Shown piece by piece: positions 29,997 to 63,862 of a stretch of DNA of 64,000 nt (position 1 is the first letter of the stretch; every line of letters starts with the position of its first letter). Origin of the DNA: Chloroflexota bacterium (GTDB lineage: Bacteria > Chloroflexota > Anaerolineae > Anaerolineales > Villigracilaceae); the NCBI GenBank assembly GCA_016213105.1, contig JACRBN010000001.1:124001-188000 (forward strand), read 5' to 3'. Below the pieces are notes generated by a model. It did not search any database. It had not been told where the DNA came from and saw only the letters and a program-made list of their open reading frames with translations. The position numbers were made by a program, and so were the translations under genes.

Positions 29997-30011
29997 CACC
30001 TCCCGCACACA

Positions 30012-30039: not shown

Positions 30040-30097
30040 CATTCCCAAATATCATCACACCCAAATGCCGTATAATCAAACCAGGATTCAAGGGCAC

Positions 30098-32965: not shown

Positions 32966-33664
32966 ATGAAATCACGCAAGTTTTTCTTCCCCATCCTGGT
33001 CGCAGCCCTGGCGCTTCTGCTCTCGGCCTGCAAAGTCAACTTCATCACCGAGATCGGCAGCAACGGCTCGGGCAAATACGTGCAGGAGATCGGCTTCCAG
33101 GGCGATGAAGCCTCGATGGCCGGGCTGAGCAGCGCCGGCGAGGATTTCTGCGCAGGCCAAAACGAAAATACCCCGCCCGGTACCAGCATCCGCCAGGAGA
33201 CCCGCAACGAGACCGAGACCTGGTGCATCTACGAAACGCCCTTCGCTTCCCTGGAGGAATTGAAGGCCATCTACGGCACCACCGATACGGTCGTCAACGA
33301 CATCTCGCTGGCGAACGGCCAGATGACCTACGACATCACCCTCGACCTGAGCGGCGACAGCAACGCCCCGACTGGCGCAGAGATGTACTGGATCGTGACC
33401 ATGCCCGGGAGCCTGGTCGAGCACAACTCCACCCTGCAGGATGGCAACACCCTGAGCTGGCAATTGCTGCTGGGCCAGCCCAACAGCATCCGCGCGGTGA
33501 GCAAGGTCGGTTTCCTGAGCGGCAACGCCATCTGGTACGTCGTGGGCGGCGGCGCCTTCCTCGGGTTCTGCTGCGTGGGCCTGCTGGTCGTCGGCGGCGG
33601 AGTCTTCTTCCTCGTCCGCCGCAACAAGAAAGCCTCCCCCGCCGAGCCCCCCACGGCCAACTGA
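32966..33664 (+). CDS. Putative lipoprotein with C-terminal membrane helix (LppM-like)
   Basis: A 232-residue protein. The N-terminus (MKSRKFFFPILVAALALLLSAC) ends in a lipobox, so Cys22 is probably acylated. The body (about 25-190; KVNFITEIGSNGSGKYVQEIGF) resembles the LppM-type domain, and a glycine-rich helix near residues 195-220 is followed by RRNKK, giving a second membrane anchor with a short cytoplasmic tail. CAAGGAG lies 8 bp upstream. It belongs to the cluster headed by the small gene at 32590. The LppM resemblance is weak evidence of function. Confidence 0.72.
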   Translation: MKSRKFFFPILVAALALLLSACKVNFITEIGSNGSGKYVQEIGFQGDEASMAGLSSAGEDFCAGQNENTPPGTSIRQETRNETETWCIYETPFASLEELKAIYGTTDTVVNDISLANGQMTYDITLDLSGDSNAPTGAEMYWIVTMPGSLVEHNSTLQDGNTLSWQLLLGQPNSIRAVSKVGFLSGNAIWYVVGGGAFLGFCCVGLLVVGGGVFFLVRRNKKASPAEPPTAN

Positions 33665-40400: not shown

Positions 40401-40498
40401 AGCGCCTCGGCGGCGCGCGAAGGCAGCCCGTTGATGGGCGCATCCCCCTTTTGGATGGATACCTCACCCAGGAGTGAAATTCGGAGTTTCGATGGCAT
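37496..40498 (-). CDS. BTAD (SARP-like) STAND regulator with NB-ARC-type ATPase and TPRs
   Basis: A 1000-residue protein. Residues 5-95: OmpR-like winged helix (LRISLLGEVSIQKGDAPI...LFIYLACNPRPVSREKLAELLW). Residues 95-240: BTAD. Residues 255-520: ATPase with Walker A ITGPGGMGKTRLAVE, Walker B LLILDNFEHL and sensor-like LVITSRERLN. Residues 600-960: TPR array. This is the layout of AfsR-type STAND activators, which hold inactive until a ligand and ATP allow oligomerisation. CTAAGCG direct repeats lie 5 bp upstream of its start and could serve both itself and the divergent gene at 40596. Confidence 0.92.
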   Translation of the reverse strand: MPSKLRISLLGEVSIQKGDAPINGLPSRAAEALFIYLACNPRPVSREKLAELLWAERSPTQALTNLRTILTPLRRELGEYLSVERNTLAFTGAEQAWLDTVEFENQLKALGVPADPRRLQSALDLYRGDFLEGFHLRDGYGFEEWAILQRERLRQLARDGLRTLARFQLESGLYAQGLFTALRWQRLDPYDEDACRTLMWLFLRTGQRAAALQTHQALKQKLDSDLGVTPASATLDLFRRIQRLDFPPALQLPAFAIPFVGRDVEIAELKGYLLARARLLTITGPGGMGKTRLAVEAVRALVNQAPGQFLHGAFFVPLTTVDTPETLVTRLAESIGFNFHGAESPQKQLFEHLREREALLILDNFEHLMDDAGAAIAFVVELLRQAPELQLVITSRERLNLYEETVFDLHGLDLPADGAQRPESSGAMALFAQNARRVQRSFVLDPAQAESVARICRLVEGAPLALELASAWVRHYPCAQIAAQIEQDLDFLSTPYRDAPEAHRSLRAVFERSWNLLSEREQLAFAQLSVFRGGFTSEAGEAILGEASDGWTPLADLADQSLLQRQPDERHDIHPLLRQYAAEKLSSLPAARELAFARHTAHYLDFLTNLGGGESPEQRARIRPEWDNLRLAWSRAAEAGDLPALERTAGVLHSFFSVQSWFVEGITLFADVLSMLERTQRSGADGLACELLGRKARMHTQIGQLEAARADLRQALTHLEHLDDPSRRARVLDSLAITNYYAGDYPQATALARESLSLSEAAGNQDGAAFALNFLGSCAKAQGDYAEARACFERSAAVYRAMQDEIGAAMVLNNLGNLLQNQGDFEGAQYYYVESGGIFKAHEHLHGAATTLSNAGKLAFKRGQHASARGLLTEGLELKRQVNDRRGEAVALAGLADIDLAESAHEPARERLKQALELALQVGDVQLMLDLLAAATDLTLRQGRRDLTLRLLSRIHPHPGAAEEARQRTNRLVTEVGGLPPAAPGQEPLEEWIPSLLLEL

Positions 40499-40502: not shown

Positions 40503-40536
40503 CTAAGCGCTTTCTAAGCGGCAATACAGATATAAA
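40503..40536 (+). promoter_or_regulatory. CTAAGCG direct repeat between divergent BTAD and small-protein genes
   Basis: CTAAGCG at 40503-40509 and 40514-40520 has the 11-bp period of SARP sites. TATAAA at 40531-40536 is 10 bp beyond the second copy, not 8 as in the other sites, and the small gene starts 59 bp later, so this promoter is less typical. Because the repeats sit right before the ATG of the minus-strand BTAD gene, binding there could also repress that gene. Confidence 0.55.
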
Positions 40537-40595: not shown

Positions 40596-40799
40596 ATGTC
40601 AAGCGACCGCCCCGACTATCACGTATACCTGCTACGCCTGTGGCGCGACGATGAAGCCACGCCCTGGCGCATCCAAGCCGAGGATCCGCACACGGACGAG
40701 GTGCTGGCCTTCCCAGACCTGGAGGACTTGTTCACCTTCCTACGCCGGCGCACCGGGCGGGACACATTCCCCACCGAAGATGACAGGCCCGGCCTGTGA
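40596..40799 (+). CDS. Small protein, RLW family (divergent member), upstream of an SLH gene
   Basis: A 67-residue acidic protein. YHVYLLRLWRDDEATPWRIQAEDPHTDEVLAFPDLEDLFTFL matches the layout of the 72-residue small proteins at 49699, 52430 and 58747 (LFVVRLWSET...FYFTSLNDLSDFI) but lacks the RGSVE core. No signal peptide or membrane segment. It ends 41 bp before the SLH gene at 40841 and is divergent from a BTAD regulator. No clear ribosome site is present, as in the leaderless relatives, but the promoter position does not settle whether this one is leaderless. Confidence 0.62.
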   Translation: MSSDRPDYHVYLLRLWRDDEATPWRIQAEDPHTDEVLAFPDLEDLFTFLRRRTGRDTFPTEDDRPGL

Positions 40800-40840
40800 T
40801 CGAAAGCTTATTTATTCATTCAGACAAGGAGATGAGAGAG

Positions 40841-43486
40841 ATGTTTGGAAAATTTCGCAAGCAAATCGCGCGTTGGGCTTCCGCCCTGGCGGCGCTGGCC
40901 CTGCTGCTGACCAACACAGCCAGCGTGCGGGCCTCGGGCACCACGGAACTGGAGGCCGATATTTACACCGCTCCCTACGGCAGGGATGATTCCAATCCAT
41001 CGGACATGGTGGTCTTCAACGGAAAATTGTACTTCAGCGCGCTTGGAGATGCGGACTACGGATATGAGTTGTGGGTATATGACGGGGTCAACCCGCCCGG
41101 CATGGCTGTGGACATTCAGCCCGGCCTCATGGATTCCAGTCCGACTTCCCCGGTCATATTCAACAATATGTTGTATTTTGGCGCGTACGACCTGGCCACG
41201 GGATATGAGTTATGGAAATACGACGGGGTCAACGCCCCCAGCCTGGTGGTCGACATCAACAGCGGCTCGAATTCCTCCTATCCCGATGATCTGGCCGTAT
41301 ACAACAATGCGCTCTACTTCAGCGCAGACGGCGGGGACGGGGCGGGCACCGAGCTATGGAAGTATGATGGGGTCAACGCCCCCAGCCGCGTGGCCGACAT
41401 CCACCCAGGCTCGGGCAGTTCCCACCCCGCCTATATGACGGTGGTGGGCAATTTTCTGGTCTTCAATGCGAACGGCAACGATGGCGCGGGGGAAGAACCC
41501 TGGGTGTATAACGGCGTCAACCCGCCCAGCCGTGTGGGCGACCTCAACCCCGGCGCGGCTTCCTCATACCCGCAGAATTTCACGCTGTTCAACAGCGTCT
41601 TGTACTTCGGCGCGGAAGATGGAGTGAATGGCAATGAATTGTGGAAGTACACCGGCGTCGGCCCGGCCACCCTGGCTGCTGATATCATCAGCGGCTCCGA
41701 TTCCTCCTATCCCGCAGACTTGGCGGTCCTGGATAACAAACTATATTTCAGGGCCGAAGATGCAAACGGTGATTCCGAATTGTGGGAGTACGATGGTGTC
41801 AACCCACCCAGCCTGACCGCGGATATTTGCCCAAGTTATTCCTCCTACCCGCAAGAGATGACAGCCTTCGATGGCCGCTTGTACTTCCAGGCCGACGGAT
41901 GCAATACGGCCGGGTATGAGCTTTGGTCGTATGACGGCGTGAACCCGCCCGCGATGGTCAGGGATATCAACCCGGAAGGCAATGGTTCCTATCCCAATGA
42001 ACTGGCGGTCTTCAACGGAAACCTGTATTTCAGCGCCAACGGCAACGACGGGGCGGGCCAGGAGTTGTGGAAATACGACGGCGTCAACCCGCCCACGCGC
42101 ATCGCCGATATCTACAGCGGCTCATTCGACGCATCCATAGCCTACCTGACCGAGTTCAACAACACACTTTACTTCCGCGCCCGCGACAGCCACGGCTACG
42201 AATTGTGGAAGTATGACGGCGTCAACCCGCCCAGCCTGGTCGCGGATATCTACAGCGGGACGAGCAGTTCCTCCCCGGGCTACCTGACCGTCTTCAACAA
42301 CATCCTGTACTTTGCTGCCAACGGCAACGATGGGGCCGGCTACGAATTATGGAAATACGATGGCATCAACCCGCCCAGCCGCGCCGCTGACATCTACGCC
42401 GGCTCCATGAGTTCCTCACCGATGGGCCTGACCGTATTCGATGGCATGCTCTATTTCGGCGCAAATGGCAACAACGGAGCAGGCAACGAATTATGGAAGT
42501 ATGACGGGGTCAACCCACCCACAATGGCAGCAAACATCGCCAGCGGATCCGCCAACTCCTACCCCACCGACCTGGCGACGATGAACGGCATCCTCTACTT
42601 CCGCGCCTACGATGCGCTCACGGGCTTCGAACTGTGGCAATACGACGGCGTTAATCCGCCCAGCCTCCTGGCTGACATTGCCAGCGGTGCGGCTAATTCC
42701 TATCCCGGTTCGCTGACCGTCTTCGACGACCGTCTGTACTTCCGCGCGTCCGAATCATCCAACGGCCTGGAACTGTGGATGTATGACGGTGTCCACCCGC
42801 CCAGCCTCGAACTCGACCTGTGGCCGGGCGAGATCAGTTCGTACACCGATTCCCTGGCCGTCTTCAACGGAAAACTATTCTTCGGCGGGGATGCCGGCAA
42901 CAGCGCGGGCAACGAACTTTGGTCTTACGTCAAGGATCCCATCTTCGCCGACGTGCCCCAGAATCACTGGGCCAACAACCAGATCGAGGATATCTACGAG
43001 TACGGCATCACCGGGGGCTGCGGCGGCAGCAACTACTGTCCCAACGGCAACGTCACCCGCGAGCAGATGGCCGTCTTCCTGCTCAAAGGCAAGCATGGCT
43101 CCGCCTACACCCCACCCCCCGCTTCAGGCACAGTCTTCAACGATGTGCCGGCCAGCGACCCCTTTGCCCCGTGGATCGAGCAACTGGCCGCCGAAGGCAT
43201 CACCGGTGGCTGCGGCGGGAATAACTATTGTCCCGACCAGGCCGTCACGCGCGAGCAGATGGCGGTCTTCCTGCTGGTCGCCGAGCACGGCAGCAGCTAC
43301 ACTCCGCCCGCCGCGACGGGCGTCTTCAATGATGTGCCCGCTAACAATCCATTCGCCCCCTGGATCGAGGCGCTGGCCGCCGAAGGCATCACCGGCGGCT
43401 GCGGTGGCGGCAACTTCTGCCCCAAGGGAACCGTCACACGCGCCCAGATGGCGGTATTCCTCGTTGCGGCTTTCAATTTGCCGTAA
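40841..43486 (+). CDS. SLH-anchored surface protein built of ELW..DG repeats
   Basis: An 881-residue exported protein. The ATG at 40841 is chosen for the AAGGAG at 40826-40831; in-frame ATG 40832 and GTG 40796 are alternatives. After the signal peptide (RWASALAALALLLTNTASVRA) come about fourteen repeats of roughly 45-50 residues ending ELWKYDGVNPPS, each with LYFxAxGNDGAG, a pattern of beta-propeller-like ELWxxDGT repeats. Three SLH repeats follow (about 700-881). It is the only non-helix, non-protease surface protein of the island. The function may be adhesion or glycan binding. Confidence 0.88.
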   Translation: MFGKFRKQIARWASALAALALLLTNTASVRASGTTELEADIYTAPYGRDDSNPSDMVVFNGKLYFSALGDADYGYELWVYDGVNPPGMAVDIQPGLMDSSPTSPVIFNNMLYFGAYDLATGYELWKYDGVNAPSLVVDINSGSNSSYPDDLAVYNNALYFSADGGDGAGTELWKYDGVNAPSRVADIHPGSGSSHPAYMTVVGNFLVFNANGNDGAGEEPWVYNGVNPPSRVGDLNPGAASSYPQNFTLFNSVLYFGAEDGVNGNELWKYTGVGPATLAADIISGSDSSYPADLAVLDNKLYFRAEDANGDSELWEYDGVNPPSLTADICPSYSSYPQEMTAFDGRLYFQADGCNTAGYELWSYDGVNPPAMVRDINPEGNGSYPNELAVFNGNLYFSANGNDGAGQELWKYDGVNPPTRIADIYSGSFDASIAYLTEFNNTLYFRARDSHGYELWKYDGVNPPSLVADIYSGTSSSSPGYLTVFNNILYFAANGNDGAGYELWKYDGINPPSRAADIYAGSMSSSPMGLTVFDGMLYFGANGNNGAGNELWKYDGVNPPTMAANIASGSANSYPTDLATMNGILYFRAYDALTGFELWQYDGVNPPSLLADIASGAANSYPGSLTVFDDRLYFRASESSNGLELWMYDGVHPPSLELDLWPGEISSYTDSLAVFNGKLFFGGDAGNSAGNELWSYVKDPIFADVPQNHWANNQIEDIYEYGITGGCGGSNYCPNGNVTREQMAVFLLKGKHGSAYTPPPASGTVFNDVPASDPFAPWIEQLAAEGITGGCGGNNYCPDQAVTREQMAVFLLVAEHGSSYTPPAATGVFNDVPANNPFAPWIEALAAEGITGGCGGGNFCPKGTVTRAQMAVFLVAAFNLP

Positions 43487-49659: not shown

Positions 49660-49691
49660 TGGACGCTTTCTGGACGCCTGCTCCATAGAAT
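49660..49691 (+). promoter_or_regulatory. SARP-type promoter: TGGACGC direct repeat, copy 1
   Basis: TGGACGC at 49660-49666 and 49671-49677 (11-bp period), then 8 bp, then TAGAAT at 49686-49691. The ATG at 49699 follows after 7 nt, so the mRNA is predicted to be leaderless. Copies with the same geometry are at 52391 and 58708. Confidence 0.8.
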
Positions 49692-49698
49692 GATGACA

Positions 49699-49917
49699 AT
49701 GGACACGAAACCTGCACCCCATCAACACCTTTTTGTCGTCCGTTTGTGGTCGGAGACGGCGGAAAACCCCCAGATCCCCCTGCGCGGATCCGTGGAACAC
49801 GTGCCCAGCGGGCAAAAGTTCTATTTCACATCGCTGAATGACCTGTCCGATTTTATCGCGCTCAAAGCGATGGTCTTATCCCAATCCATCTCCAAAGAAA
49901 AGGAAACCAAACCATGA
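49699..49917 (+). CDS. 72-residue RLW/RGSVE small protein, coupled to an SLH gene
   Basis: The ATG at 49699 is chosen because the earlier in-frame ATG at 49690 overlaps the -10 box. LFVVRLWSETAENPQIPLRGSVEHVPSGQKFYFTSLNDLSDFIAL is nearly identical to the proteins at 52430 and 58747. There is no signal peptide, membrane helix or cysteine. The stop overlaps the next gene's start as ATGA, so the two are translationally coupled at a fixed ratio. The last codons (SKEKETKP) double as the AAAGGAAA ribosome site of the SLH gene. Function unknown. Confidence 0.75.
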   Translation: MDTKPAPHQHLFVVRLWSETAENPQIPLRGSVEHVPSGQKFYFTSLNDLSDFIALKAMVLSQSISKEKETKP

Positions 49918-52277
49918 AACACAAACTCATCTCCCTCTTCGTCCTGCTGGCTCTCCTGTTGGCGGGGATGCCAGTCCAGCCTGCCCGCGCCGCGGGGGTG
50001 ATCATCTACGTGGACGCGGACTCGGGCTGTTCTTCGTCCTGCGGCGGGTCATGGGCCGCGGCTCATCGCACACTGCAAGCCGCCCTCACGGCCGCCAAAA
50101 GCTCCGACCAGCTCTGGGTGGCGGAAGGCGTTTATTATCCCGGCGCGGCGGGCGACCGCACCGTCACCTTCACGCTCAAGAACGGCGTGGCAATTTATGG
50201 CGGCTTCAACGGCACCGAGACTCGGCTTTCGAGTCGGGATTGGCAAGTCAACCCCACCATCCTGAGCGGCGATATTGACCAGAACGATGTCAACCTGGAT
50301 GGCAACTTCGTCGCCGAAACCACAGCCAATATCATTGGCGATAACGCCTACAACGTGGTCACTGGCGGCGGAACGGACAATACGGCCATCCTGGATGGCT
50401 TCACCATTACGGCGGGTCGGGCAAACCTTCTCGATGCTTCGTTCGCCACCGGCGGTGGGATGTACAACTCATCCAGTAGTCCGACACTCACGAATTTAAC
50501 CTTCAGTGGCAACTTCGCAGCCTTCTCCGGTGGCGGGATGTTCAACTCATCCAGCAGTCCGACATTGTCGAATGTCACCTTTGGTGGAAACTGGGCGACC
50601 GCCGGTGGCGGAATGTTCAACACGAATAGCAATCCATTTCTGACAAACGTTTCTTTTCAAAACAACAGCGCCGCGGATGGAGGGGGCATGGCAAATATTA
50701 ACAGCGCGCCCGTCATCTCAGGAGGGACATTCGATCAAAACACTGCCACATCAAAAGGTGGGGGCCTCTACAACGACAACAGTGATCTATCGCTTTCGAA
50801 CACCGACTTCACCCTTAACAACGCGGCAAACGGTGGCGGGATCTATAATGCCAACGGCAGCAACCTGATGCTGAATGGGGGGCAAATCTTCGGCAATTCA
50901 ACCACTACAGGCAATGGAGGCGGGATATACAACTCTCTAAGTATGATCTCGCTGGTGACGGTTGATATCAATAGTAACAGGGCCGACAACTCCGGCGGCG
51001 GGATATTTAACGACATCGGAAACCTTACTTCGGCTAGCACATTCTCGTTGACGAACGTTAAATTTATAATGAATATATCGAATTCCGGCGGCGGGATGTA
51101 CAACGGTGAACTTTCCAGTGGCACATTGACCAATGTTGAATTCTATGAAAATGTTTCCACGGGCTTTCAAGGCGGCGGGATGAACAACTCCTCCGCCGGC
51201 AATCTGGCGCTGGAAAACGTCACGTTTACCAATAATTACGCGCCAAAGGGCGGTGGAATGAACAATAACTATACCGACCCATCCCTGACAAACGTTACGT
51301 TCCATCATAACGGCTCCCAAGGCAACGCGGGCATGGGCGGCGGAATGTACAATAACGCAAGCCACCCCATCCTCATCAACACCGTGATCGCCGATAGCGA
51401 AAGCGGTGGGGATTGCGCCGGTTCCACGCTGGACAGCGCCTCCTCCAACAACCTGATCGAAGACAGCGCCTTTGCCTGCGGATTGACGAACGGCGACGCA
51501 AACGGCAACATCGTCGGGCTGGACCCCAACTTGGGTCCACTGGCAGATAACGGCGGCTTCACCCAGACCCATGCCCTGCTCACCGGTTCCCCGGCCATCG
51601 ACGCGGGCGATGATGCCTCCTGCCCGGACACCGATCAGCGCGGCCTGTCCCGCCCCTGGGACGGCGACGGCTCTGGCGGCGCTGCCTGCGACATCGGCGC
51701 CTATGAGGTTCCCTACCCCTCTCCCGTCTTTGCGGATGTACCCGTCGGCTATTGGGCGATCTCCCACATCGAAAGCCTGTATGCCAACGGCATCACCGGC
51801 GGCTGCACAGTCAGCCCACTCAACTACTGTCCCGCCAATCCCGTCACGCGCGCACAGATGGCCGTCTTCCTGCTCAAGGCCATGTACGGCGCGGCTTGTG
51901 TCCCAGCTGATGCCACCGGCACGATCTTCAACGATGTTCCCGCCAGCAACCCCTTCGCCAAATGGATCGAGCAACTGGCGGCCGAAGGCATCACCGGCGG
52001 CTGTGGCGGCGGAAATTATTGTCCCAACACCCCAGTCACCCGCGAGCAGATGGCCGTCTTCCTGCTGGTCGCCGAGCACGGCACCGGCTACACCCCGCCC
52101 GCCGCAACCGGCGTCTTCGCGGATGTACCCGCCAGCAACGGCTTCGCCCCCTGGATCGAGCAACTGGCCGCCGAAGGCATCACCGGCGGCTGCGGCGGAG
52201 GCAACTTCTGCCCCAAGACCGTTGTCACCCGCGCCCAGATGGCTGTCTTCCTCGTCTCCGCTTTCAACCTGCCGTAA
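49914..52277 (+). CDS. SLH-anchored beta-helix surface protein, module 1 of three
   Basis: A 787-residue exported protein starting within the ATGA overlap with the small gene. The signal peptide ([20 protein letters not shown], cleavage near PARA) is almost the same in the proteins at 52645 and 58962. The beta-helix region (about 30-595) opens with [20 protein letters not shown], has many GGGMFN/GGGMYN turns and ends [26 protein letters not shown]; three SLH repeats follow (about 604-787). An imperfect hairpin without T-run lies after the stop. Exported with an SLH anchor; possible adhesin. Confidence 0.9.
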
Positions 52278-52287
52278 ACAGGATGAC

Positions 52288-52324
52288 ATCAACAGGCGGG
52301 GTCGGACCGGCTCCGCCTGTTGAT
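52288..52324 (+). other. Hairpin after the module 1 SLH gene
   Basis: A perfect 12-bp stem (52288-52299 with 52313-52324) without a T-run; it may work as a weak terminator or 3' end stabiliser. A second, imperfect hairpin with a six-T run (about 52342-52391) lies just before the next promoter and is a better terminator candidate. Confidence 0.55.
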
Positions 52325-52390
52325 ATGGGATATGGATGAATAAGAGAAAGCTCCGCAAGATACCCAAACTCCTTGGAGCCCTTTCTTTTT

Positions 52391-52422
52391 TGGACACTTT
52401 CTGGATGCCCCTTCCCTACAAT
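52391..52422 (+). promoter_or_regulatory. SARP-type promoter: TGGACAC/TGGATGC direct repeat, copy 2
   Basis: TGGACAC at 52391-52397 and TGGATGC at 52402-52408 (11-bp period; each differs from TGGACGC by one base), then 8 bp, then TACAAT at 52417-52422. The ATG at 52430 follows after 7 nt. Confidence 0.75.
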
Positions 52423-52429
52423 GAGAGCA

Positions 52430-52648
52430 ATGAACACAAAACCCGCTCCATCTCAACACCTCTTTGTTGTCCGTTTGTGGTCGGAGACGGCGGAAAAAAA
52501 CCAGATCCCCCTGCGCGGATCCGTGGAACACGTGCCCAGTGGGCAAAGGCTCTACTTCACTTCGCTGAACGACCTGTCTGATTTCATCGCGCTCAAAGCG
52601 ATGGTCTTACCCCAATTCATCTCCAAAGAAAAGGAAACCAAACCATGA
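52430..52648 (+). CDS. 72-residue RLW/RGSVE small protein, coupled to an SLH gene
   Basis: A close copy of the protein at 49699; changes are mainly AEKNQ for AENPQ, QRLYF for QKFYF and LPQF for LSQS. The ATG at 52430 is 7 nt after the -10 box and the earlier ATG at 52421 overlaps it. The stop overlaps the SLH start as ATGA. The promoter repeats here are one base off the TGGACGC form in each half, so the response to the regulator may be weaker than at the other two modules. Confidence 0.75.
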   Translation: MNTKPAPSQHLFVVRLWSETAEKNQIPLRGSVEHVPSGQRLYFTSLNDLSDFIALKAMVLPQFISKEKETKP

Positions 52649-54846
52649 AACACAAACTGATCTCCCTCTTCGTCCTGCTGGCTCTCCTGCTGGCGTGGAT
52701 GCCAGTCCAGCCTGCCCGGGCTGGCGCGGCCTGGTTTGTAGACGTTGATTCCACCTGTGTCTCTTCCTGCGGCGGTTCCTGGGCCAAAGCCTACCCCACC
52801 CTGCAAGCCGCGCTGGTGGAGGCGGGTGCCGGCATCGAGATTTGGGTAGCGGAGGGCGTGTACTATCCCGATGAAGGGCCGGGACAGACAGACAATAGCC
52901 GTGTCTCCGCTTTTGGCTTGAAGAATGGCGTGGAAATCTACGGCGGATTCAACGGCACAGAAACCGTGTTCTCCGAACGGGACATTGCAGCAAATCCCGT
53001 CATCTTGAGTGGCGATATTGACAAGAACGATGTCAACACCGATGGCGATTTCATTGCCGATACCGCCGCCGACATTGTTGGAAATAATACCTACCACGTG
53101 GTGAGGGGCAGCGGAACCGATAACACCGCCATTCTGGACGGAGTCTTCATCACGGCCGGGCTGGCAAATGGAACTTCCCCGCACGACCAGGGCGGCGGGA
53201 TCTACAATAACGGCGGCAGTCCCAAACTGGATTCTGTTTTTTTTATCGGGAATCGCGCCAATATTGGCGGAGGGATGCGCAATGCCAGTGGGAATCCCCA
53301 ATTGACCAGTAACATCTTCATGAACAACAGCGCCGATTTTGGGGGCGGCATGGCAAATTGGAACAGTTCGCCTTCCATCGCTGGTACTACCTTCCACAAT
53401 AATGAAGCCACCAACTCGGGCGCAAACACCGGGTTCGGCGGCGGAATGCATAACTGGAACAGTAGTCCTGTCATCATCGAAAGCGGGTTCGGATCGAACG
53501 ACGCCGTGAGCGGCGGTGGCATGTACAATGACGGTGCAAGCGCCCCAATCATTACCTCGGGATACTTTAGCGGCAACAATGCCAACTATGGCGGCGCCCT
53601 GCACAATGATGCGAGCAGCCCCATCATTACCAAGGTTGACATTCATTTCAATACAGCCTCAGACCAGGGAGGCGGCATATACAACGTGGAGAGCAGCCCT
53701 GTTTTCGACTCTGGTTCGATCAACGACAATACTGCGACTGTTGACGGCGGCGGAATATACAATTATTCCAGCAATCCTGAAATCAAAAATACCACCATCT
53801 CCAAAAATACGGCCGGGAATAAGGGCGGTGGAATGTACAACGGCTATAGTAATCCAGTGCTGACCAACCTCACGATGAGTGAAAACGAAGCAAGCGATGG
53901 AGGCGGGCTGCGCAATTACTACGGCGAGATCCTGCTGAAAAACACCCTGATCGCCAATAGCGTGTCCGGGGGCGATTGTGTCAATGGCGCTGGAGTTCTT
54001 ATCCATGCCGCGTCAGGAAACAATCTGATCGAAGACGCCGGCCATGCCTGCGGGCTGACGAACGGCACAGATGGGAATATTGTTGGTGTCGACCCAAAAC
54101 TTGGGGAACTTTGGGATAACGGCGGCTCCACCCAAACGCATGCCCTGCTCGCCGGTTCCCCGGCCATCGACGCGGGCGATGATGCAATCTGCCCGGACAC
54201 CGATCAGCGCGGCCTGTCCCGCCCCTGGGACGGCGACGGCTCTGGCGGCGCTGCCTGCGATATCGGCGCGTACGAAGTTCCCTCCCCCTCTCCCGTCTTT
54301 GCGGATGTGCCCGTCGGCTATTGGGCGATCTCCCACATCGAAAGCCTGTATGCCAACGGCATCACCGTCGGCTGCACGGTCAGCCCGCTCAACTACTGTC
54401 CCGCCAATCCCGTCACGCGCGCACAGATGGCCGTCTTCCTGCTCAAGGCCATGTACGGCGCGGCCTATGTCCCAGCCGATGCCACCGGCACGATCTTCAA
54501 CGATGTTCCCGCCAGCAACCCCTTCGCCAAATGGATCGAGCAACTGGCGGCTGAAGGCATCACCGGCGGCTGCGGCGGCGGAAATTACTGCCCCAATACC
54601 CCCGTCACGCGCGAGCAGATGGCGATCTTCCTGCTGGTTGCCGAGCATGGCACCGGCTATACTCCGCCCGCCGCAACCGGCGTCTTCGCGGACGTACCCG
54701 CCGACTACTGGGCTGCTCCCTGGATCGAGCAACTGGCCGCCGAGGGCATCACCGGCGGCTGCGGCGGAGGCAACTTCTGCCCCAAGACCGTCGTCACCCG
54801 CGCCCAGATGGCTGTCTTCCTCGTCTCCGCTTTCAACCTGCCATAG
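52645..54846 (+). CDS. SLH-anchored beta-helix surface protein, module 2 of three
   Basis: A 733-residue exported protein starting in the ATGA overlap with the small gene. Signal peptide as in module 1. The beta-helix region (about 28-540) begins [23 protein letters not shown] and is only moderately similar to module 1 in the middle, while the ends are near-identical. Three SLH repeats follow (about 550-733); the first has GITVGC instead of the usual GITGGC, and the third has ADYWAAPW instead of SNGFAPW. The terminator and 3' flank match the gene at 47273, which indicates copying between modules. Confidence 0.9.
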   Translation: MKHKLISLFVLLALLLAWMPVQPARAGAAWFVDVDSTCVSSCGGSWAKAYPTLQAALVEAGAGIEIWVAEGVYYPDEGPGQTDNSRVSAFGLKNGVEIYGGFNGTETVFSERDIAANPVILSGDIDKNDVNTDGDFIADTAADIVGNNTYHVVRGSGTDNTAILDGVFITAGLANGTSPHDQGGGIYNNGGSPKLDSVFFIGNRANIGGGMRNASGNPQLTSNIFMNNSADFGGGMANWNSSPSIAGTTFHNNEATNSGANTGFGGGMHNWNSSPVIIESGFGSNDAVSGGGMYNDGASAPIITSGYFSGNNANYGGALHNDASSPIITKVDIHFNTASDQGGGIYNVESSPVFDSGSINDNTATVDGGGIYNYSSNPEIKNTTISKNTAGNKGGGMYNGYSNPVLTNLTMSENEASDGGGLRNYYGEILLKNTLIANSVSGGDCVNGAGVLIHAASGNNLIEDAGHACGLTNGTDGNIVGVDPKLGELWDNGGSTQTHALLAGSPAIDAGDDAICPDTDQRGLSRPWDGDGSGGAACDIGAYEVPSPSPVFADVPVGYWAISHIESLYANGITVGCTVSPLNYCPANPVTRAQMAVFLLKAMYGAAYVPADATGTIFNDVPASNPFAKWIEQLAAEGITGGCGGGNYCPNTPVTREQMAIFLLVAEHGTGYTPPAATGVFADVPADYWAAPWIEQLAAEGITGGCGGGNFCPKTVVTRAQMAVFLVSAFNLP

Positions 54847-54898
54847 GAAATCAAACCTGAGGGAAACTCGCCAGCGTTGGTTGATGCTGGTTCGATCC

Positions 54899-54930
54899 AA
54901 GGCGGCCCTGATCCCAGGGCCGCCTTTTGT
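54899..54930 (+). terminator. Rho-independent terminator (copy of the one at 49517)
   Basis: The same 12-bp stem and ATCC loop as at 49517 (here 54899-54910 with 54915-54926), followed by four T. Confidence 0.93.
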
Positions 54931-55139
54931 TTTGCGCGCGGGCGTGGCATCGAGAGAAGCGACTGGGATGGAATCGCATCTGATATATTCGCCCATCCAT
55001 TTTGTTGCTACAATCGACCCAACCTTTGATACCCTGCTATTTTTACTCGTAGATGTCCGCTGCGCCCGTTGTCAGGGCCGGAAGAAATGGAAGTGTCCAA
55101 GCCAATTCGGGCTTATCCTTCAAATACCGGGAGTTCACC

Positions 55140-58100
55140 ATGACGTTGATGATTCATTTGCTCGGCAAACCAAAACTGCTGCTGGATTCGACGCCTTTAA
55201 AATTCAACGCCCCGCCCCGCACTCTGCCCCTGCTGGCCTATCTGTTGCTGCATCGGCGGCAGGCACTCGAACGACAGAATGTCTCCTACGCCCTGTGGCC
55301 CGACGACTCTGAAAGCAACGCCCGCACCAACCTGCGCCGTCACATCCACCAATTGCAACGCGTCCTGCCGCCCGCGGATCAACCCTGGCTCTTCGGGGAT
55401 ATGCGCACCATCAGGTGGAATCCCGAATCTGACTTTTGGCTGGATGTGGAAGAGTTCGAACATCTCGCGGCCCAGCCCAACCATCTCGAAGCGGCCGCGG
55501 CCTGTTACACGGGAGACCTGCTCGAAACCGTCTACGACGACTGGGTCTTCTTCGAACGGGAACGCCTGCTCAATCAATATTTCGACCTGCTCACCCGCCT
55601 TGTCTTCCAGCATCGCGCCGGGCGCGATTACCCCAAGGCCATCGGCTTTGCGCGCCAGTTACTTAACCGTGATCCCTTCCGCGAGGATACCCTGCGGCAA
55701 TTGATCGCCGTCCGTTACGAATCAGGCGACCGCGCGGGCGCCATTCAGGAATTCAAAACCTTCGAGCGCCGCCTGCGGGATGAGATGGGCGTGACGCCCA
55801 TGCCCGAAACCCTTTCCCTGCACGAACTGGTGACGCGCGACGAGCGTTTGCCCGCCCTCGACACGCCCGCCGCTTCCGATCCTGAACCCGAAGCGGGCCG
55901 CGCGTTTCGAGGCGCGTCCCTGCCCTTTGTGGGGCGCGAACGCGAGATGGAGCGCGCCTCCGCCTGGTGGAGCCGCGCCGCGCGTGGCTACGGCGGACTG
56001 AGTATGATCGGCGGCGAGGCGGGCGTGGGCAAGTCGCGGCTGGCGCGGCAGGTGTCCCTGCTGGTCGAGAGTCAGGGCGGACGCGTGCTCGTCGGGCGCA
56101 CCTCGCCGCAGGAGGCGCGTCCGTATCAGGCCGTGATTGAAGCCATGCAATCCGTCCTGCCGTTGCTGGCCGCTCAAAACACAGACTTGATGCACATGGC
56201 CGCGCTCGGCCTCCTGATTCCCGAACTCAAATCGCGCATGAAGTTGCCCGACCTCCCGCCGCTGGATGCCGAGCGCGAACGCCTGCGCCTGTTCAGCGCG
56301 GTGGCGAAGTCACTTGAGCAGTTGGCCGCGCCACGTCCATTGTTGTTGCTGCTCGAAGATTTGCACTGGGCAGGCGAGGCCAGCGCCGCGCTGGTGGAAT
56401 TTTTGGCGCGTCATGCCGCCCGCCTCCCGATCCTGATTCTATGCACCTACCGCGACGAAGAGACGCCGCGCATTCATCCGTTGCGTCAAATGCGCCGCAA
56501 ACTGCAAGCCGACCTGACCGTGGAGCACATGGCGCTCAGCCGCCTCTCGCGCGAGGCGGTGGATGACCTCGTGGGGCGGATTGGCAATCCGCCTTACTCA
56601 TCGTCACGGTTGTTTTCCGAAAGCGAGGGCAACCCACTCTTCATCGAAATGCTGGTGCAGAGTTGGAGCGAGGGCGAAGCGACCGAATCGGTACCGGGCG
56701 GAATCCGCGCCGTGATCGCGGCGCAATTGGAGAAGCTGCCCGAGTCGGCGCGGGCGTTTGCCGAGACCGCCGCCGTGCTGGGCCCCGCCTTCGACGCGGA
56801 AGCCACGCGCGAGGTCGGCGGCTGGGACGAGGCGCAATCGCACGAGGCATTGCGCGGTCTGCTCGACCGTCGCCTCGTGTGGGAAACGGAGGGACGCAGT
56901 CGCTTCGATTATTTCTTCGCGCACCATCTCATTCAATCGGTGCTATACAACGAAATCCCACTTGCCAAGCGCAAGCGCCGTCACCTGCGCGCGGCCGAGG
57001 TGCTGGAGGAACTCCATCCCGAACAGCGGAGTCGGATGGCAGGTGAGCTTGCTTCGCACTACGATCTGGGCGACGCGCCCGCGCAGGCCATTCCTCTATA
57101 TCTCGAAGCCGCGCGCGGACACCTGACCGTCTTCGCAGATGCGGAGGCGTTGACCGTCAGCGGGCGGGCGCTTCAATTGGCCGCGTCCCGCCCCGAGGTC
57201 GGAGAGACGCGAACCGTCTTCGAGTTGATCCGCTTACAGGAGGGAATCCACCATCGGCGCGGTGAACGCGACGAGCAACGCGTCGCATTGGAAAAGATGG
57301 AGAGGCTCACGGGCGAATTGAACGATCCCGAATTGGTCTGCGAGGCGACCCGATGTCAAATCCAATTTTACAGGGCTGTGGATGACCACCCATCACAACG
57401 GGCGAAGGTTGACTTGCTTCAACAGCAGGCCAAAAAAATGGGAAGCCGCTATTGGCAAGCCGAGGCGCTTTTTGCCGAGGGCAACTTTCGAAAAATAACG
57501 CATGAATTTCCCGAGGCCATCCAACGGCTTGGGGAAGCCGCGGTGTTTTACCGTGAGGCACAGATCGCAGAGGCAGAGGTGGATTGCTACAACCTGCTGT
57601 CTGAGATAAGTATCATCCAACGCCACAGCGCCGAAGCGGAGGCCTGGGCGCAAAAAGCCCTGGCCTTGTGCGAGAAGGGGCGCCCCACGCACGCGCTCCT
57701 GCAAACGCTTTGGAATTTGTCTGCCAATGGCTTGACGGTCAAGGATTACGAACGCTGTTATCGTTACGCCCGGCAATTGCTCGAGTCTGCCCAGCAGGCA
57801 CATGACTTGGTATGGCAGGCCGCGGCGCATCGTTTGATGGGCATGGCCTACCAACGTCAATTCCGCATTGCCGAAGCACATAAAAGCCTGAACACTGCGC
57901 TCAATCTGTACCAGCAGGTTCAAAAGCCGAAAGGCCAGGCGCTCACATTGCAAACCATCGGACATGTTGAGGTATCGGTGGGAAACCATGCCACGGCCAT
58001 TCAAAACTATGAGCAGGCTTACGAAATCAACGAAAAACTTCGCGACCAAAACGGGATGGCGAGCGAGGCGATCAATATCAGTTGCGCGGCTTCCTTTCAA

Positions 58101-58622
58101 GGGGATTACGCCATAGAAAAGGAATACGCCCAGCGCGCCATCCCGCTTGCCCGGCAGATTCATAGTGGTTTTCTCGAAGGGATGGCTCTGCAAAACCTGG
58201 GCGAGGCCGAACGCGAACTGGGCGACCTGGAGTCCGCCCGCCAGCATTTGGCTGAATCCTTAAACTTCATGGACGACGCGACCCAGATTGTGGAACGGTC
58301 GAGCATTTTGTCCGACCTGGCGTTGACGTACTGGAAGGCAGGCGACCTGCCGCTCGCCATGCAAACTGCCGAGCAGATTTTATCTGCCTATCCCGAAGTG
58401 GAAGGGAAAGACGATAACGTTCACCGCTTCCTGTGGGTGGCGGCGCGCATCCTGCACGCGGACGGTCAAGCCGACCACGCGGCGGCTACTGTGGCTCAGG
58501 CCTACGCGGCCTTCCAGAAGGACGCGGCCGCCATCCCCGAGGCCGAGTCGCGGCGCAGTTTTGCTGAAATTCGCCACAACCGGCAGATCGTCGCGGCCCA
58601 CGAACGGGGGGAATGGCCGTAA
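55140..58622 (+). CDS. BTAD (SARP-like) STAND regulator with AAA ATPase and TPRs
   Basis: A protein of about 1160 residues. Residues 3-95: OmpR-like winged helix (IHLLGKPKLLLDSTPLKF...LPLLAYLLLHRRQALERQNVSYALWP). Residues 95-250: BTAD (ACYTGDLLETVYDDWVFFERERLL...RDEMGVTPMPETL). Residues 275-560: AAA ATPase with Walker A GGEAGVGKSRLA and Walker B LLLLLEDLHW. Residues 650-1150: TPRs. ATG 55140 has GGGAG upstream; ATG 55053 would add 29 atypical residues. The TGGACGC repeats flank the gene (52391 upstream, 58708 just downstream), making it the likely activator of the three RLW modules. Confidence 0.9.
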   Translation: MTLMIHLLGKPKLLLDSTPLKFNAPPRTLPLLAYLLLHRRQALERQNVSYALWPDDSESNARTNLRRHIHQLQRVLPPADQPWLFGDMRTIRWNPESDFWLDVEEFEHLAAQPNHLEAAAACYTGDLLETVYDDWVFFERERLLNQYFDLLTRLVFQHRAGRDYPKAIGFARQLLNRDPFREDTLRQLIAVRYESGDRAGAIQEFKTFERRLRDEMGVTPMPETLSLHELVTRDERLPALDTPAASDPEPEAGRAFRGASLPFVGREREMERASAWWSRAARGYGGLSMIGGEAGVGKSRLARQVSLLVESQGGRVLVGRTSPQEARPYQAVIEAMQSVLPLLAAQNTDLMHMAALGLLIPELKSRMKLPDLPPLDAERERLRLFSAVAKSLEQLAAPRPLLLLLEDLHWAGEASAALVEFLARHAARLPILILCTYRDEETPRIHPLRQMRRKLQADLTVEHMALSRLSREAVDDLVGRIGNPPYSSSRLFSESEGNPLFIEMLVQSWSEGEATESVPGGIRAVIAAQLEKLPESARAFAETAAVLGPAFDAEATREVGGWDEAQSHEALRGLLDRRLVWETEGRSRFDYFFAHHLIQSVLYNEIPLAKRKRRHLRAAEVLEELHPEQRSRMAGELASHYDLGDAPAQAIPLYLEAARGHLTVFADAEALTVSGRALQLAASRPEVGETRTVFELIRLQEGIHHRRGERDEQRVALEKMERLTGELNDPELVCEATRCQIQFYRAVDDHPSQRAKVDLLQQQAKKMGSRYWQAEALFAEGNFRKITHEFPEAIQRLGEAAVFYREAQIAEAEVDCYNLLSEISIIQRHSAEAEAWAQKALALCEKGRPTHALLQTLWNLSANGLTVKDYERCYRYARQLLESAQQAHDLVWQAAAHRLMGMAYQRQFRIAEAHKSLNTALNLYQQVQKPKGQALTLQTIGHVEVSVGNHATAIQNYEQAYEINEKLRDQNGMASEAINISCAASFQGDYAIEKEYAQRAIPLARQIHSGFLEGMALQNLGEAERELGDLESARQHLAESLNFMDDATQIVERSSILSDLALTYWKAGDLPLAMQTAEQILSAYPEVEGKDDNVHRFLWVAARILHADGQADHAAATVAQAYAAFQKDAAAIPEAESRRSFAEIRHNRQIVAAHERGEWP

Positions 58623-58661
58623 TCTTCATCATCCCCGCCCTTTCCCCCTTTTGGGGGAGGG

Positions 58662-58708
58662 AAGAAGACCCTAAAGGTTTCCAAAACCTTTAGGGTCTTC
58701 TTGTTTTT
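58662..58708 (+). terminator. Strong terminator of the BTAD-AAA gene, abutting the next promoter
   Basis: A perfect 19-bp stem (58662-58680 with 58684-58702), 3-nt loop, then G and five T. The last T is the first base of the TGGACGC repeat, so termination and the next promoter are packed back to back. Confidence 0.95.
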
Positions 58709-58739
58709 GGACGCTTTCTGGACGCCTGCTCTGTAGAAT
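58708..58739 (+). promoter_or_regulatory. SARP-type promoter: TGGACGC direct repeat, copy 3
   Basis: TGGACGC at 58708-58714 and 58719-58725 (11-bp period), 8 bp, TAGAAT at 58734-58739. The ATG at 58747 follows after 7 nt. Confidence 0.8.
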
Positions 58740-58746: not shown

Positions 58747-58965
58747 ATGAATAAGAAACCCACCCCCCCGCAACACCTTTTTGTTGTCCGTTTGTGGTCG
58801 GAAACGGCGGGAAAAAACCAGATGCCCCTGCGCGGCTCGGTGGAACACATCCCCAGCGGGCAAAAGTTCTATTTCACTTCGCTGAATGACCTGTCCGATT
58901 TCATCGCGCTCAAAGCGGTGGTCTCATCCCAACCCATCTCCAAAGAAAAGGAAAACCAACAATGA
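58747..58965 (+). CDS. 72-residue RLW/RGSVE small protein, coupled to an SLH gene
   Basis: Close to the proteins at 49699 and 52430 (LFVVRLWSETAGKNQMPLRGSVEHIPSGQKFYFTSLNDLSDFIAL). The earlier ATG at 58738 overlaps the -10 box, so 58747 is taken. The stop overlaps the next start as ATGA. The three copies keep the RLW-x(10-14)-RGSVE core and the FTSLNDLSDFIALKA tail almost unchanged, including silent positions, which fits recent duplication; selection on the protein cannot be separated from this by eye. Confidence 0.75.
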   Translation: MNKKPTPPQHLFVVRLWSETAGKNQMPLRGSVEHIPSGQKFYFTSLNDLSDFIALKAVVSSQPISKEKENQQ

Positions 58966-61127
58966 AGCACAAGCTCATCACCCTGTTCGTTCTGCTGGCC
59001 CTCCTGCTGGCTCTCGCACCCGTTCAACCAGCCCACGCGCTCGGGAATCTCTACGCCAAGCCGGTTGCAAGCGGCCTAGGAAATTGCTCCAGTTGGGCAA
59101 ACGCCTGCACCCTGCAAACCGCGCTGACCAACGCGCCCAGAGACACGGAAATATGGGCTGCCATGGGAACGCACCGCCCCACCACCTCGACAGTGAATCG
59201 CGACGCCACCTTCCAACTCAAAGATAGCGTGGCTGTGTACGGCGGATTCAAAGGCACCGAAACGACCCGCGACCAGCGCGACCCGGCGGCCAATGTCACC
59301 GTCCTGAGCGGCGATATTGACCGTAACGACAGCCAGACCCCGATCATCACCGACATCTCGACCGTAACCGGTAACGGCACCAACAGTTATCATGTGGTCA
59401 CGGGCATAACCGGTGCAACCCTGGATGGAGTCACCATCACGGCCGGCTTTGCCGGCGGCGATTATCCAAGCGATCGCGGCGGCGGGATGTACAACGCTTC
59501 CAACAGCAATCCGGTGTTGACGAACGTCACCTTCAGCGGCAACGCCGCGAGCGATAACGGCGGCGGGATGTGCAACTCGTACAGCAATCCGATGCTGACG
59601 ACCGTCACTTTCAGCAGTAATGCCGCACACTATGGCGGCGGGATGTACAACAATCACAGCAGTCCAATCTTGAATATCGCTACTTTCAGCGGTAACGTGG
59701 TAACCACCACCGGCACCGGCGGCGGGATGTATAACGCGTACAGCAGTAATCCAACTATGACGGACGTCACCTTCAGCGGCAACTTGTCAGCGTACTATGG
59801 CGGTGGGATGGGAAACTATGAAAGCAGTCCGATCTTGACAAATGTCACTTTCAGTAGCAACTCGGCAACAAACCATGGCGGCGGAATGTACAACGCGCGT
59901 TTTAGCAGTCCGGTGTTGACGAACGTCACCTTCAGCGGTAACACAACGACAGAGGCGGGCGGCGGGATGATCAACACCGAAAGCAATCCAACGTTAACGA
60001 ACGTCACCTTCAGCGACAATACAGCGAATCGCGGCGGTGGGATGAACAACGGCGGCGTCAGCAACCCAACGTTAACCAATGTCACCTTCAGCGGTAACAC
60101 AGCGACAGATATAGGCGGCGGGATATACAACATGGGCGGCACCCTGCTATTAACGAATGTCACCTTCAGCGGCAACACGGCAACAAACCGTGGCGGCGGG
60201 ATGTGGAACAATAGTAGTAATCCGCAGATCCGCAACACCATTTTCTGGGGTAACACGGCTACAACCGGAGCGCAGATTTACAACAACGACAGCATTTCTG
60301 CCGTGGTAAACGACAGCGTCGTGCAGGATGGCTGTCCCGCCGATAGCACTTGCACAAATATCATCACCGCAGATCCCCTGCTCGGCGCGCTCGGCGATAA
60401 CGGCGGATTCACGCTTACCATCCCGATCCAGGCAGGCTCGTCTGCCATCGACGCGGGAGATGATGCAATCTGCCCGGACACCGATCAGCGCGGCCTGTCC
60501 CGCCCCTGGGACGGCGATGGCTCTGGCGGCGCTGCCTGCGACATCGGCGCCTATGAGGTTCCCTCCCCTTCTCCCGTCTTTGCGGATGTACCCGTCGGCT
60601 ATTGGGCGATCTCCCACATCGAAAGCCTGTATGCCAACGGCATCACCGGCGGCTGCACAGTCAGCCCACTCAACTACTGTCCCGCCAATCCCGTCACCCG
60701 CGCACAGATGGCCGTCTTCCTGCTCAAGGCCATGTACGGCGCGGCTTATGTCCCAGCTGATGCCACCGGCACGATCTTCAACGATGTTCCCGCCAGCAAC
60801 CCCTTCGCCAAATGGATCGAGCAACTGGCGGCCGAAGGCATCACCGGCGGCTGTGGCGGCGGAAATTATTGTCCCAACACCCCCGTCACCCGCGAGCAGA
60901 TGGCCGTCTTCCTGCTGGTCGCCGAGCACGGCACTGGCTACACCCCGCCCGCCGCAACCGGCGTCTTCGCGGATGTGCCCGCCAGCAACGGCTTCGCCCC
61001 CTGGATCGAGGCCCTGGCCGCCGAAGGCATCACCGGCGGCTGCGGCGGCGGCAACTTCTGCCCCAAGACCATCGTCACCCGCGCACAGATGGCCGTCTTC
61101 CTGGTCACGGCTTTCAATCTGCCGTAG
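58962..61127 (+). CDS. SLH-anchored beta-helix surface protein, module 3 of three
   Basis: A 721-residue exported protein in ATGA overlap with the small gene. The signal peptide ([20 protein letters not shown]) resembles modules 1 and 2, but the mature N-terminus (LGNLYAKPVASGLGNCSSWANACTLQTALTN) resembles the proteins at 17832 and 61310, so this is a mosaic. The beta-helix region (about 25-530) is very regular (LTNVTFSGNTATxxGGGMYN) and ends like modules 1 and 2 ([22 protein letters not shown]). Three SLH repeats follow (about 540-721). Confidence 0.9.
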   Translation: MKHKLITLFVLLALLLALAPVQPAHALGNLYAKPVASGLGNCSSWANACTLQTALTNAPRDTEIWAAMGTHRPTTSTVNRDATFQLKDSVAVYGGFKGTETTRDQRDPAANVTVLSGDIDRNDSQTPIITDISTVTGNGTNSYHVVTGITGATLDGVTITAGFAGGDYPSDRGGGMYNASNSNPVLTNVTFSGNAASDNGGGMCNSYSNPMLTTVTFSSNAAHYGGGMYNNHSSPILNIATFSGNVVTTTGTGGGMYNAYSSNPTMTDVTFSGNLSAYYGGGMGNYESSPILTNVTFSSNSATNHGGGMYNARFSSPVLTNVTFSGNTTTEAGGGMINTESNPTLTNVTFSDNTANRGGGMNNGGVSNPTLTNVTFSGNTATDIGGGIYNMGGTLLLTNVTFSGNTATNRGGGMWNNSSNPQIRNTIFWGNTATTGAQIYNNDSISAVVNDSVVQDGCPADSTCTNIITADPLLGALGDNGGFTLTIPIQAGSSAIDAGDDAICPDTDQRGLSRPWDGDGSGGAACDIGAYEVPSPSPVFADVPVGYWAISHIESLYANGITGGCTVSPLNYCPANPVTRAQMAVFLLKAMYGAAYVPADATGTIFNDVPASNPFAKWIEQLAAEGITGGCGGGNYCPNTPVTREQMAVFLLVAEHGTGYTPPAATGVFADVPASNGFAPWIEALAAEGITGGCGGGNFCPKTIVTRAQMAVFLVTAFNLP

Positions 61128-63830: not shown

Positions 63831-63862
63831 GGGACGATTCGAGGACGATGGTTCGATAAAAT
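63831..63862 (+). promoter_or_regulatory. SARP-type promoter: GGACGA direct repeat
   Basis: GGGACGA at 63831-63837 and AGGACGA at 63842-63848 (11-bp period), 8 bp, TAAAAT at 63857-63862. The shared GGACG core is that of the TGGACGC sites, so the same regulator may act here. The likely next start (63913) is 50 bp on, so this transcript would have a leader. Confidence 0.65.

Follow-up and report, generated by a model that had tools for sequence, protein, structure and literature searches.

Most Streptomyces antibiotic regulatory proteins (SARPs) of actinomycetes are known as antibiotic regulators. According to the passages of the literature cited here, SARPs occur mainly in actinomycetes (PMC10936776), and their promoters follow a rule in which direct repeats stand 11 or 22 bp apart and the 3' repeat lies 8 bp from the -10 box (PMC10936776; compare PMC5930380 and PMC10972967). 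This report concerns the same layout in a Chloroflexota bacterium of the order Anaerolineales. The window, that is, the whole stretch analysed, comprises 64,000 nucleotides of contig JACRBN010000001.1 (positions 124,001 to 188,000), and all coordinates below are counted from its first letter. Within it, three operator/promoter sites surround a large SARP-type regulator gene, and each is followed by a small gene of a family called RLW here, a working name from this analysis and not a published one. Judging from sequence comparisons, it is very probable that operons with RLW as their first gene, usually running on into a secreted or surface cargo protein, are switched on by a SARP-type activator. 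The features at issue are as follows.

49660..49691, plus strand: operator/promoter 1; TGGACGC (49660-49666), TTTC, TGGACGC (49671-49677), 8 bp, -10 box TAGAAT (49686-49691)
49699..49917, plus strand: RLW small gene 1, 72 aa (P0001); ATG 7 nt after the -10 box, stop codon overlapping the next ATG
49914..52277, plus strand: cargo 1, SLH protein with a signal-peptide-like start
52391..52422, plus strand: operator/promoter 2; TGGACAC, TTTC, TGGATGC, 8 bp, TACAAT
52430..52648, plus strand: RLW small gene 2, 72 aa (P0002)
52645..54846, plus strand: cargo 2, SLH protein with a signal-peptide-like start
55140..58622, plus strand: large SARP-type regulator, winged helix-turn-helix (wHTH)-BTAD-AAA_16-TPR; recognition helix NLRRHIHQLQR
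58708..58739, plus strand: operator/promoter 3, directly 3' of the regulator gene; TGGACGC, TTTC, TGGACGC, 8 bp, TAGAAT
58747..58965, plus strand: RLW small gene 3, 72 aa (P0003)
58962..61127, plus strand: cargo 3, SLH protein with Chlam_PMP repeats and a signal-peptide-like start

The pattern TGGACRC-N4-TGGAYGC-N8-TA[GC]AAT-N7-ATG occurs without a mismatch at 49660, 52391 and 58708. The geometry given in a preliminary description of this DNA (heptamers repeated at 11 bp, 8 bp to the -10 box, 7 nt to ATG) is therefore exact at all three sites, and its comparison with SARP promoters agrees with the published rule. The spacer between the heptamers is TTTC each time. Only 0.06 chance matches are expected in the window even when three mismatches are allowed, and chance was rejected as the source of three exact ones. 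The ATG that follows each -10 box opens a 72-aa RLW open reading frame (ORF), whose TGA overlaps the start of the next gene (ATGA) in every case, and that next gene encodes an SLH protein; the three small-protein/SLH modules described earlier are thus present as claimed. With its ATG 7 nt from the -10 box, RLW gene 1 is probably leaderless. The same distance holds at the other two sites and is between 7 and 11 nt at six further TGGACGC-class loci, so that the RLW start in this class may in general be leaderless.

Throughout the genome (5.39 Mb, 28 contigs), the three window sites are the sole matches with up to two mismatches, and the earlier expectation that hits would lie mainly before RLW small genes holds here for 3 of 3. 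A looser pattern with one mismatch gave six matches in this genome against five in a reversed control. The three extra ones (L004-L006) look like chance, lie in 3-kb loci that have no RLW gene, and were rejected as regulon members. Across a sample of 151 Anaerolineales genomes that contains the present one, a related pattern was found 12 times, and seven times in the reversed control. Five of the 12 matches precede an RLW gene, of which three are those of the window, and a further one stands before a gene for a secreted protein that has no RLW; the other six (L007, L008, L009, L011, L013 and L014) are at the level of the reversed control, have no RLW gene in their stretches, and were likewise rejected. 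Outside this genome the related pattern by itself barely exceeds its control. The strength of the SARP case comes from the regions upstream of RLW genes, which were examined directly, and not from pattern searching alone.

Two side observations belong to these sites. At locus L015 (G135:C194), at about 1501-1620, TGAACGC-CTTT-TGGACGC-N8-TATAAT stands before a secreted-protein gene that resembles the SLH cargo of the window and has no RLW; the frame of this gene appears broken close to its beginning. By eye, an inverted repeat with a T run, resembling a terminator, stands in the space between the regulator gene and operator 3 (about 58670-58703), and a like element, again between regulator gene and operator, lies upstream of the RLW gene of L017 (the same place as L093). 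Perhaps both separate two transcription units.

The regulator itself has the features of a large SARP, with a winged helix followed by BTAD and, C-terminal of these, an NTPase and TPR part (AAA_16 at residues 262-433, TPR from about 890). BTAD scores 64.1 bits against a Pfam cut-off of 22.1, and the winged helix (Trans_reg_C) scores 23.5 bits, below the curated cut-off of 26.2. The BTAD-AAA regulator placed among the sites by the preliminary description is thus found with its BTAD, AAA_16 and TPR domains, and with a winged helix that scores under the threshold. In a phmmer search of the Protein Data Bank, residues 7-238 align to AfsR and the recognition helix aligns without a gap; AfsR chains (8hvr, 8k60, 8jke) match at E values from 3.8e-8 (8hvr) to 6.1e-7, and EmbR (2fez) matches at 6.7e-9. 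Homology to AfsR and EmbR accordingly stands beside the promoter layout, in which all three sites have repeats 11 bp apart and the 3' repeat 8 bp from the -10 box.

The three 72-aa proteins of the window share the motif VRLW. An alignment of 31 family members reads FxVRxWxE...WRGSVEHVxSGExxYF, with W17 invariant. Relatives were found by single-sequence search in 50 of 400 genomes of the order, while the 31-member alignment recovered six copies in this genome, copies in at least 160 of 400 genomes of the order and in at least 90 of 400 genomes of a phylum sample; the last two counts are lower bounds, with up to 14 first-look candidates scored per genome, and the two sets overlap. Individual genomes hold at least 13 (G005), 12 (G135) or 14 (G409) RLW genes, suggesting large sets of parallel switches. 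No Pfam family was matched by P0001 or P0003 at E 0.001. Across the 31 members, Pfam gave scattered weak matches, the best being Tnp_22_dsRBD in two members (6.4e-5), and the best NCBIfam value was 0.019. An AlphaFold2 model predicts a single beta-beta-beta-alpha unit (mean pLDDT 78, with 34 of the 72 residues scoring at least 90). A Foldseek search with this model returned nothing at E <= 0.001, and the best VIA-align match was release factor 2 at Z 5.1, with double-stranded RNA-binding domains lower; these matches may reflect a common arrangement only, and no fold assignment is claimed from them. By eye, RLW has no signal peptide.

Gene neighbourhood ties the RLW family to BTAD regulators. 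One hundred stretches, most of about 10 kb, were taken around RLW matches in other genomes of the order; they were chosen by RLW and not by BTAD, and came from near the top of the RLW listing, with most rows that had in-frame stops and a few others left out. They hold 102 RLW genes, which with the six of this genome make 108. A wHTH-BTAD ORF lies in the stretch for 93 of the 108 (6/6 of the genome's own and 87/102 of the others), upstream on the same strand in 66 cases, upstream and divergent in 20 and downstream in seven. The distance to RLW, measured between stop-to-stop ORFs, is within 300 bp in 66 of the 93. Among 90 pairs, the regulator ORF spans up to 400 aa in 13, 401-900 aa in nine and more in 68; some regulator ORFs may be cut by the ends of stretches or contigs. 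RLW and BTAD sequences diverge together over these 90 pairs (Mantel r 0.612), as would the parts of any linked unit; this is no proof of contact.

The spacing of the repeats recurs as well. Many regions upstream of RLW relatives carry the same repeat or another in the same geometry, and others showed none. When ungapped self-matches upstream of the 108 RLW genes were scored at each lag from 5 to 33, a score of at least 7 was reached at lag 11 in 48 regions, at lag 22 in 12, at lag 9 in nine and at every other lag in five at most; in a less redundant set, lag 11 was found in 47 of 103. A heptamer pair with at least 6/7 matches and TAnnnT exactly 8 bp on is present in 32 of the 108 regions, compared with a mean of 0.54 and a maximum of three in 50 Markov shuffles and with 11 of 632 regions upstream of other ORFs (these control ORFs, like the 560 used for the cargo below, include spurious ones). 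The exact 8 bp is firm at the sites of the window and only compatible with the data elsewhere. Pairs of TGGACGC or TGGACGT precede RLW genes in six further genera, and at some loci, L132 and L189 among them, three or more repeat units follow one another.

The arrangement also extends to another phylum. A scan of named genomes gave 35 RLW loci, of which eight are apparently contigs already used; a BTAD ORF is present in 32 of the 35, and none was seen in the stretches of L196, L200 and L203. Besides Chloroflexota, 16 of the loci belong to Lysobacter, Luteimonas, Pseudoxanthomonas, Xanthomonas sp. Leaf131, a metagenome-assembled genome (MAG) of Lysobacterales, and Hydrogenophaga and Ramlibacter MAGs. 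All 16 carry at least four GTGA units at exactly 11 bp; among 4800 windows drawn at random from these loci, 102 contain at least three. When GTGAnnn is read as the heptamer, [CT]AnnnT follows 8 bp past the last unit in 15 of the 16 and GACACT in L203, a loose likeness to a -10 box. At L206, the next gene encodes a protein of 1619 aa with amidase, trypsin and C70 peptidase domains. From these comparisons, a unit of activator gene, its own repeat, RLW and often a secreted protein appears to recur widely in two phyla.

The repeat sequence differs between loci, and it varies with the recognition helix of the neighbouring regulator. For 36 regulator-operator pairs, operator distance correlates with recognition-helix distance (Mantel r 0.382, p=0.0002), also after the rest of the domain is removed (partial r 0.223, p=0.0004) and in 24 non-redundant pairs (r 0.257, p=0.001); L151 and the register for L090 look misread in the set of 36 and both were kept. 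The two best helix positions, at a single-position p=0.001 each, align with T88 and R92 of AfsR, which in the cited passages make specific base contacts in the solved complex (PMC10936776). In addition, R or K at the position of AfsR R87 goes with ACG in both repeats in 16 of 19 pairs versus 0 of 17 for other residues, and in 10 of 12 versus 0 of 12 in the non-redundant set. Other loci gave 12 of 17 versus 2 of 24, a comparison that is not blind, many of the repeats and helices having been seen beforehand; in addition, 15 of those 24 rows are close proteobacterial relatives, some of the rows are related to the 36 pairs, and the picked repeat is probably not the operator in several (L160, L164, L167, L170, L199, L210, L211 and L219). 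Taken as sequence evidence, it is supported that the operator repeat follows the recognition helix of the neighbouring BTAD protein. The proposed link between the three sites and the BTAD regulator is thus strengthened by both neighbourhood and covariation.

Further sites of the same layout, built on other repeats and missed by the preliminary description, lie in the window at 32552 and 40505, with a candidate at 63831. Their features are listed here.

29474..32491, plus strand: regulator 2 of the window, BTAD and TPR repeats, start codon uncertain
32552..32583, plus strand: operator with another heptamer; GCGAGAG, TCAC, GCGAGAG, 8 bp, TATAGT
32590..32808, plus strand: RLW small gene 4, ATG 6 or 9 nt after the -10 box
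32966..33664, plus strand: cargo 4, predicted lipoprotein with a signal-peptide-like start and Cys
37496..40498, minus strand: regulator 3 of the window, BTAD, NACHT/AAA and TPR, divergent from RLW gene 5
40505..40536, plus strand: operator with another heptamer; AAGCGCT, TTCT, AAGCGGC, 8 bp, TATAAA; weaker, with 5/7 matches
40596..40799, plus strand: RLW small gene 5
40796..43486, plus strand: cargo 5, large protein in which a signal-peptide-like stretch was seen; the ATG at 40842 is probably its real start
63831..63862, plus strand: candidate operator; GGGACGA, TTCG, AGGACGA, 8 bp, TAAAAT; no convincing RLW gene there

A sixth RLW gene, on contig C17, is preceded by a weak repeat, GTAACTC-CCCC-GTGACCA-N8-TATGCT. 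This genome has five strong and two marginal BTAD genes; each of the six RLW genes has a BTAD gene no more than about 5 kb away, and four of the five strong BTAD genes have an RLW gene. Three RLW genes share regulator 55140-58622, one stands behind 29474-32491, one is divergent from 37496-40498 and one is behind the C17 regulator, in which BTAD is C-terminal. The candidate operator at 63831 stands about 50 nt before a gene for a 737-aa protein with a signal-peptide-like start (L060 913-3126), possibly a regulon member that has no small gene. Elsewhere in the window, a different small ORF (46953-47162), with no RLW motif by eye, precedes an SLH gene at 47273, where no operator of the SARP-repeat kind was seen.

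The cargo behind RLW is varied and often appears to be secreted. By a simple hydrophobicity rule of our own, a signal-peptide-like start was assigned to 62 of the 87 genes that begin no more than 260 nt past RLW, compared with 133 of 560 control ORFs. A Pfam scan of 81 of the 87 downstream proteins (six were left out, two of them very long) found SLH in six, phage tail sheath in five and beta-helix in four, followed by a long tail of others. At L132, L148, L154, L171 and L188, RLW is followed by a phage-tail-sheath gene; these stretches hold a BTAD regulator of about 310-340 aa, and AGACG-type repeats stand upstream. BTAD has been described as a shell domain of extracellular contractile injection system loci in the cited passages (Geller et al. 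2021, PMC8213781), and injection-system loci seem to use the same switch of regulator, repeat and RLW.

A mechanism can be proposed on the model of AfsR. The sites at 49660, 52391 and 58708 would be operators of regulator 55140-58622, on which two wHTH-BTAD protomers would sit side by side, one on each heptamer and one helical turn apart, over the -35 region. By analogy, they may recruit RNA polymerase to the -10 box 8 bp downstream, as AfsR does at afsS, and the AAA and TPR parts could gate the switch with nucleotide and signal. Transcription would start at or next to the RLW ATG, giving a probably leaderless message, and would run through the ATGA overlap into the gene for the secreted surface protein. 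The three further units of the genome each have their own regulator and their own repeat; therefore the parallel switches are probably insulated by operator sequence. Binding, activation and insulation at these operators are what we infer. RLW would be the constant first product while the cargo varies, and our best guess is a small cytosolic regulator that acts in feedback or as a co-factor. Since RLW also accompanies regulators of about 310-340 aa, which have no room for NTPase or TPR parts, any contact with the regulator may be at the wHTH-BTAD part. Such a partnership is offered as a tentative suggestion. More speculatively, and with considerable doubt, BTAD, cognate repeat and RLW might form a portable cassette found in at least two phyla, with specificity set mainly at AfsR positions 87, 88 and 92, with RLW as a dedicated wHTH-BTAD partner in feedback, and with any surface, lytic or injection cargo behind it.

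The geometry, the uniqueness in this genome, the linkage and the covariation were computed, and several results weigh against reading them as a SARP switch. No BTAD ORF was found in the fetched stretch for 15 of the 108 RLW genes, and 60 of the 108 upstream regions fall below the 11-bp threshold. The heptamer and -10 scan gives 42 regions at 9 bp and 38 at 10 bp, for the most part sites already counted at 8 bp, because the repeat register can be called 1-2 bp either way; the register was set by the author in the operator-class listing, the covariation and the proteobacterial counts. Repeats in L223, L224 and L180 are 12 bp apart; these three share a recognition helix of the HRSxHx type (HRSLHF/HRSMHH) and perhaps form a sub-class with another spacing. 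Other repeat classes often have their ATG further downstream, so not all members are leaderless, and the C17 heptamers, in the author's reading, agree at 4/7 positions only. Over 16 helix positions, the family-wise p values of the two best are 0.035 and 0.034. Among 222 usable domain columns, a column outside the helix ranks first, with AfsR 88 and 92 second and third, and therefore ancestry contributes to the covariation. Finally, the ACG rule was noticed in the set of 36 before being counted there.

Two other accounts of the sites themselves can be weighed against this evidence. Pho boxes are also 11-bp direct repeats. The repeats might thus be read by some other winged-helix protein of the OmpR/PhoB kind and not by the neighbouring BTAD regulator, since DNA geometry alone cannot separate the two families and the winged helix of 55140 is under its Pfam cut-off; yet the presence of a BTAD ORF beside 93 of 108 RLW genes, and a repeat that tracks the recognition helix encoded there, above all at positions that contact bases in AfsR, make this account quite improbable. 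The sites might instead be mere relics of triplication, with no regulatory meaning beyond descent. They are indeed paralogues, as proposed earlier, with small proteins about 80% identical, cargo 1 and cargo 2 each 65% identical to cargo 3, and the same TTTC spacer. For this reason the survival of the geometry through the base changes at copy 2, put forward earlier as a sign of function, is a weak argument alone, and loci outside the three modules carry more weight. Many of them, those in proteobacteria included, show this geometry built on different repeats, and TGGACGC/TGGACGT pairs occur in the six further genera; mere paralogy was rejected on these grounds, which leaves the relic account almost no probability.

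The role of RLW is a separate question. It could be a helper in the expression or export of the secreted cargo, as a translation-coupling leader cistron or a small chaperone or adaptor. Its place directly 5' of the cargo, the ATGA overlap in three of the genome's modules and the frequent signal-peptide-like starts would fit; however, the cargo ranges widely, from SLH and beta-helix proteins to propellers and phage-sheath genes, many downstream genes stand 20 to 250 nt away with no overlap, and RLW keeps its conserved residues across phyla and stays with the regulator gene, so that a helper role is possible but doubtful. The genes afsR and afsS stand side by side. RLW might act downstream as AfsS does, as a small pleiotropic effector with targets elsewhere in the cell, given that both systems pair a large SARP with a small gene under its operator (cited passages of PMC10936776 and PMC2267785). 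AfsS, however, is described as a protein of 63 aa with three 12-aa repeats (PMC2267785) and RLW is predicted to be a single beta-beta-beta-alpha unit, and an effector of this sort seems unlikely. For RLW, a regulatory role beside the SARP-type activator remains our best guess.

If this account of a SARP-type activator and an RLW-first operon is right, secreted and surface proteins seem to be under SARP promoter logic both in Lysobacter-type bacteria and in Chloroflexota that are largely uncultured, so that sequence alone could suffice to match an operon of these genomes with its regulator. The many paralogous regulator-operator pairs would offer a natural data set for the recognition code of the SARP winged helix, beyond the single AfsR-DNA structure. 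The work also defines a small-protein family that tracks a regulator across phyla and whose role is directly testable.

The arrangement was not described in the best-ranked open-licence titles and abstract starts, 10 to 20 out of 47 to 920 hits per search, on SARP or BTAD in Chloroflexi, Anaerolineae, Xanthomonadaceae, Lysobacter and contractile injection, and the passages on the Streptomyces injection system in PMC10020575 do not mention regulator, repeat and RLW together. The contractile-injection BTAD loci are alike in that five of the 81 scanned genes behind RLW are phage-sheath genes, and differ in that the small gene and the operator repeats go unmentioned in the available passages (PMC8213781). 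EmbR shares the wHTH-BTAD domain pair (2fez) and differs by its FHA domain, according to the passages cited (PMC10936776). PimR and other SARP-LAL regulators likewise use a heptamer with a 4-nt spacer in two or three copies, one monomer to each heptamer, in the account cited (PMC5930380), whereas the main PimR operator has no -35 overlap, its heptamer is CGGCAAG and its target is pimM. The closest parallel is AfsR-afsS of Streptomyces coelicolor, in which a homologous regulator of the same wHTH-BTAD-NTPase-TPR build acts on a small target gene whose -35 region is overlain by two 11-bp repeats, as the cited passages have it (PMC10936776). Compared by description, the repeat-built AfsS differs from the one-domain RLW. 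Here, moreover, a cargo gene, often secreted-looking, stands behind the small gene, and the hosts are Chloroflexota and Proteobacteria instead of Streptomyces.

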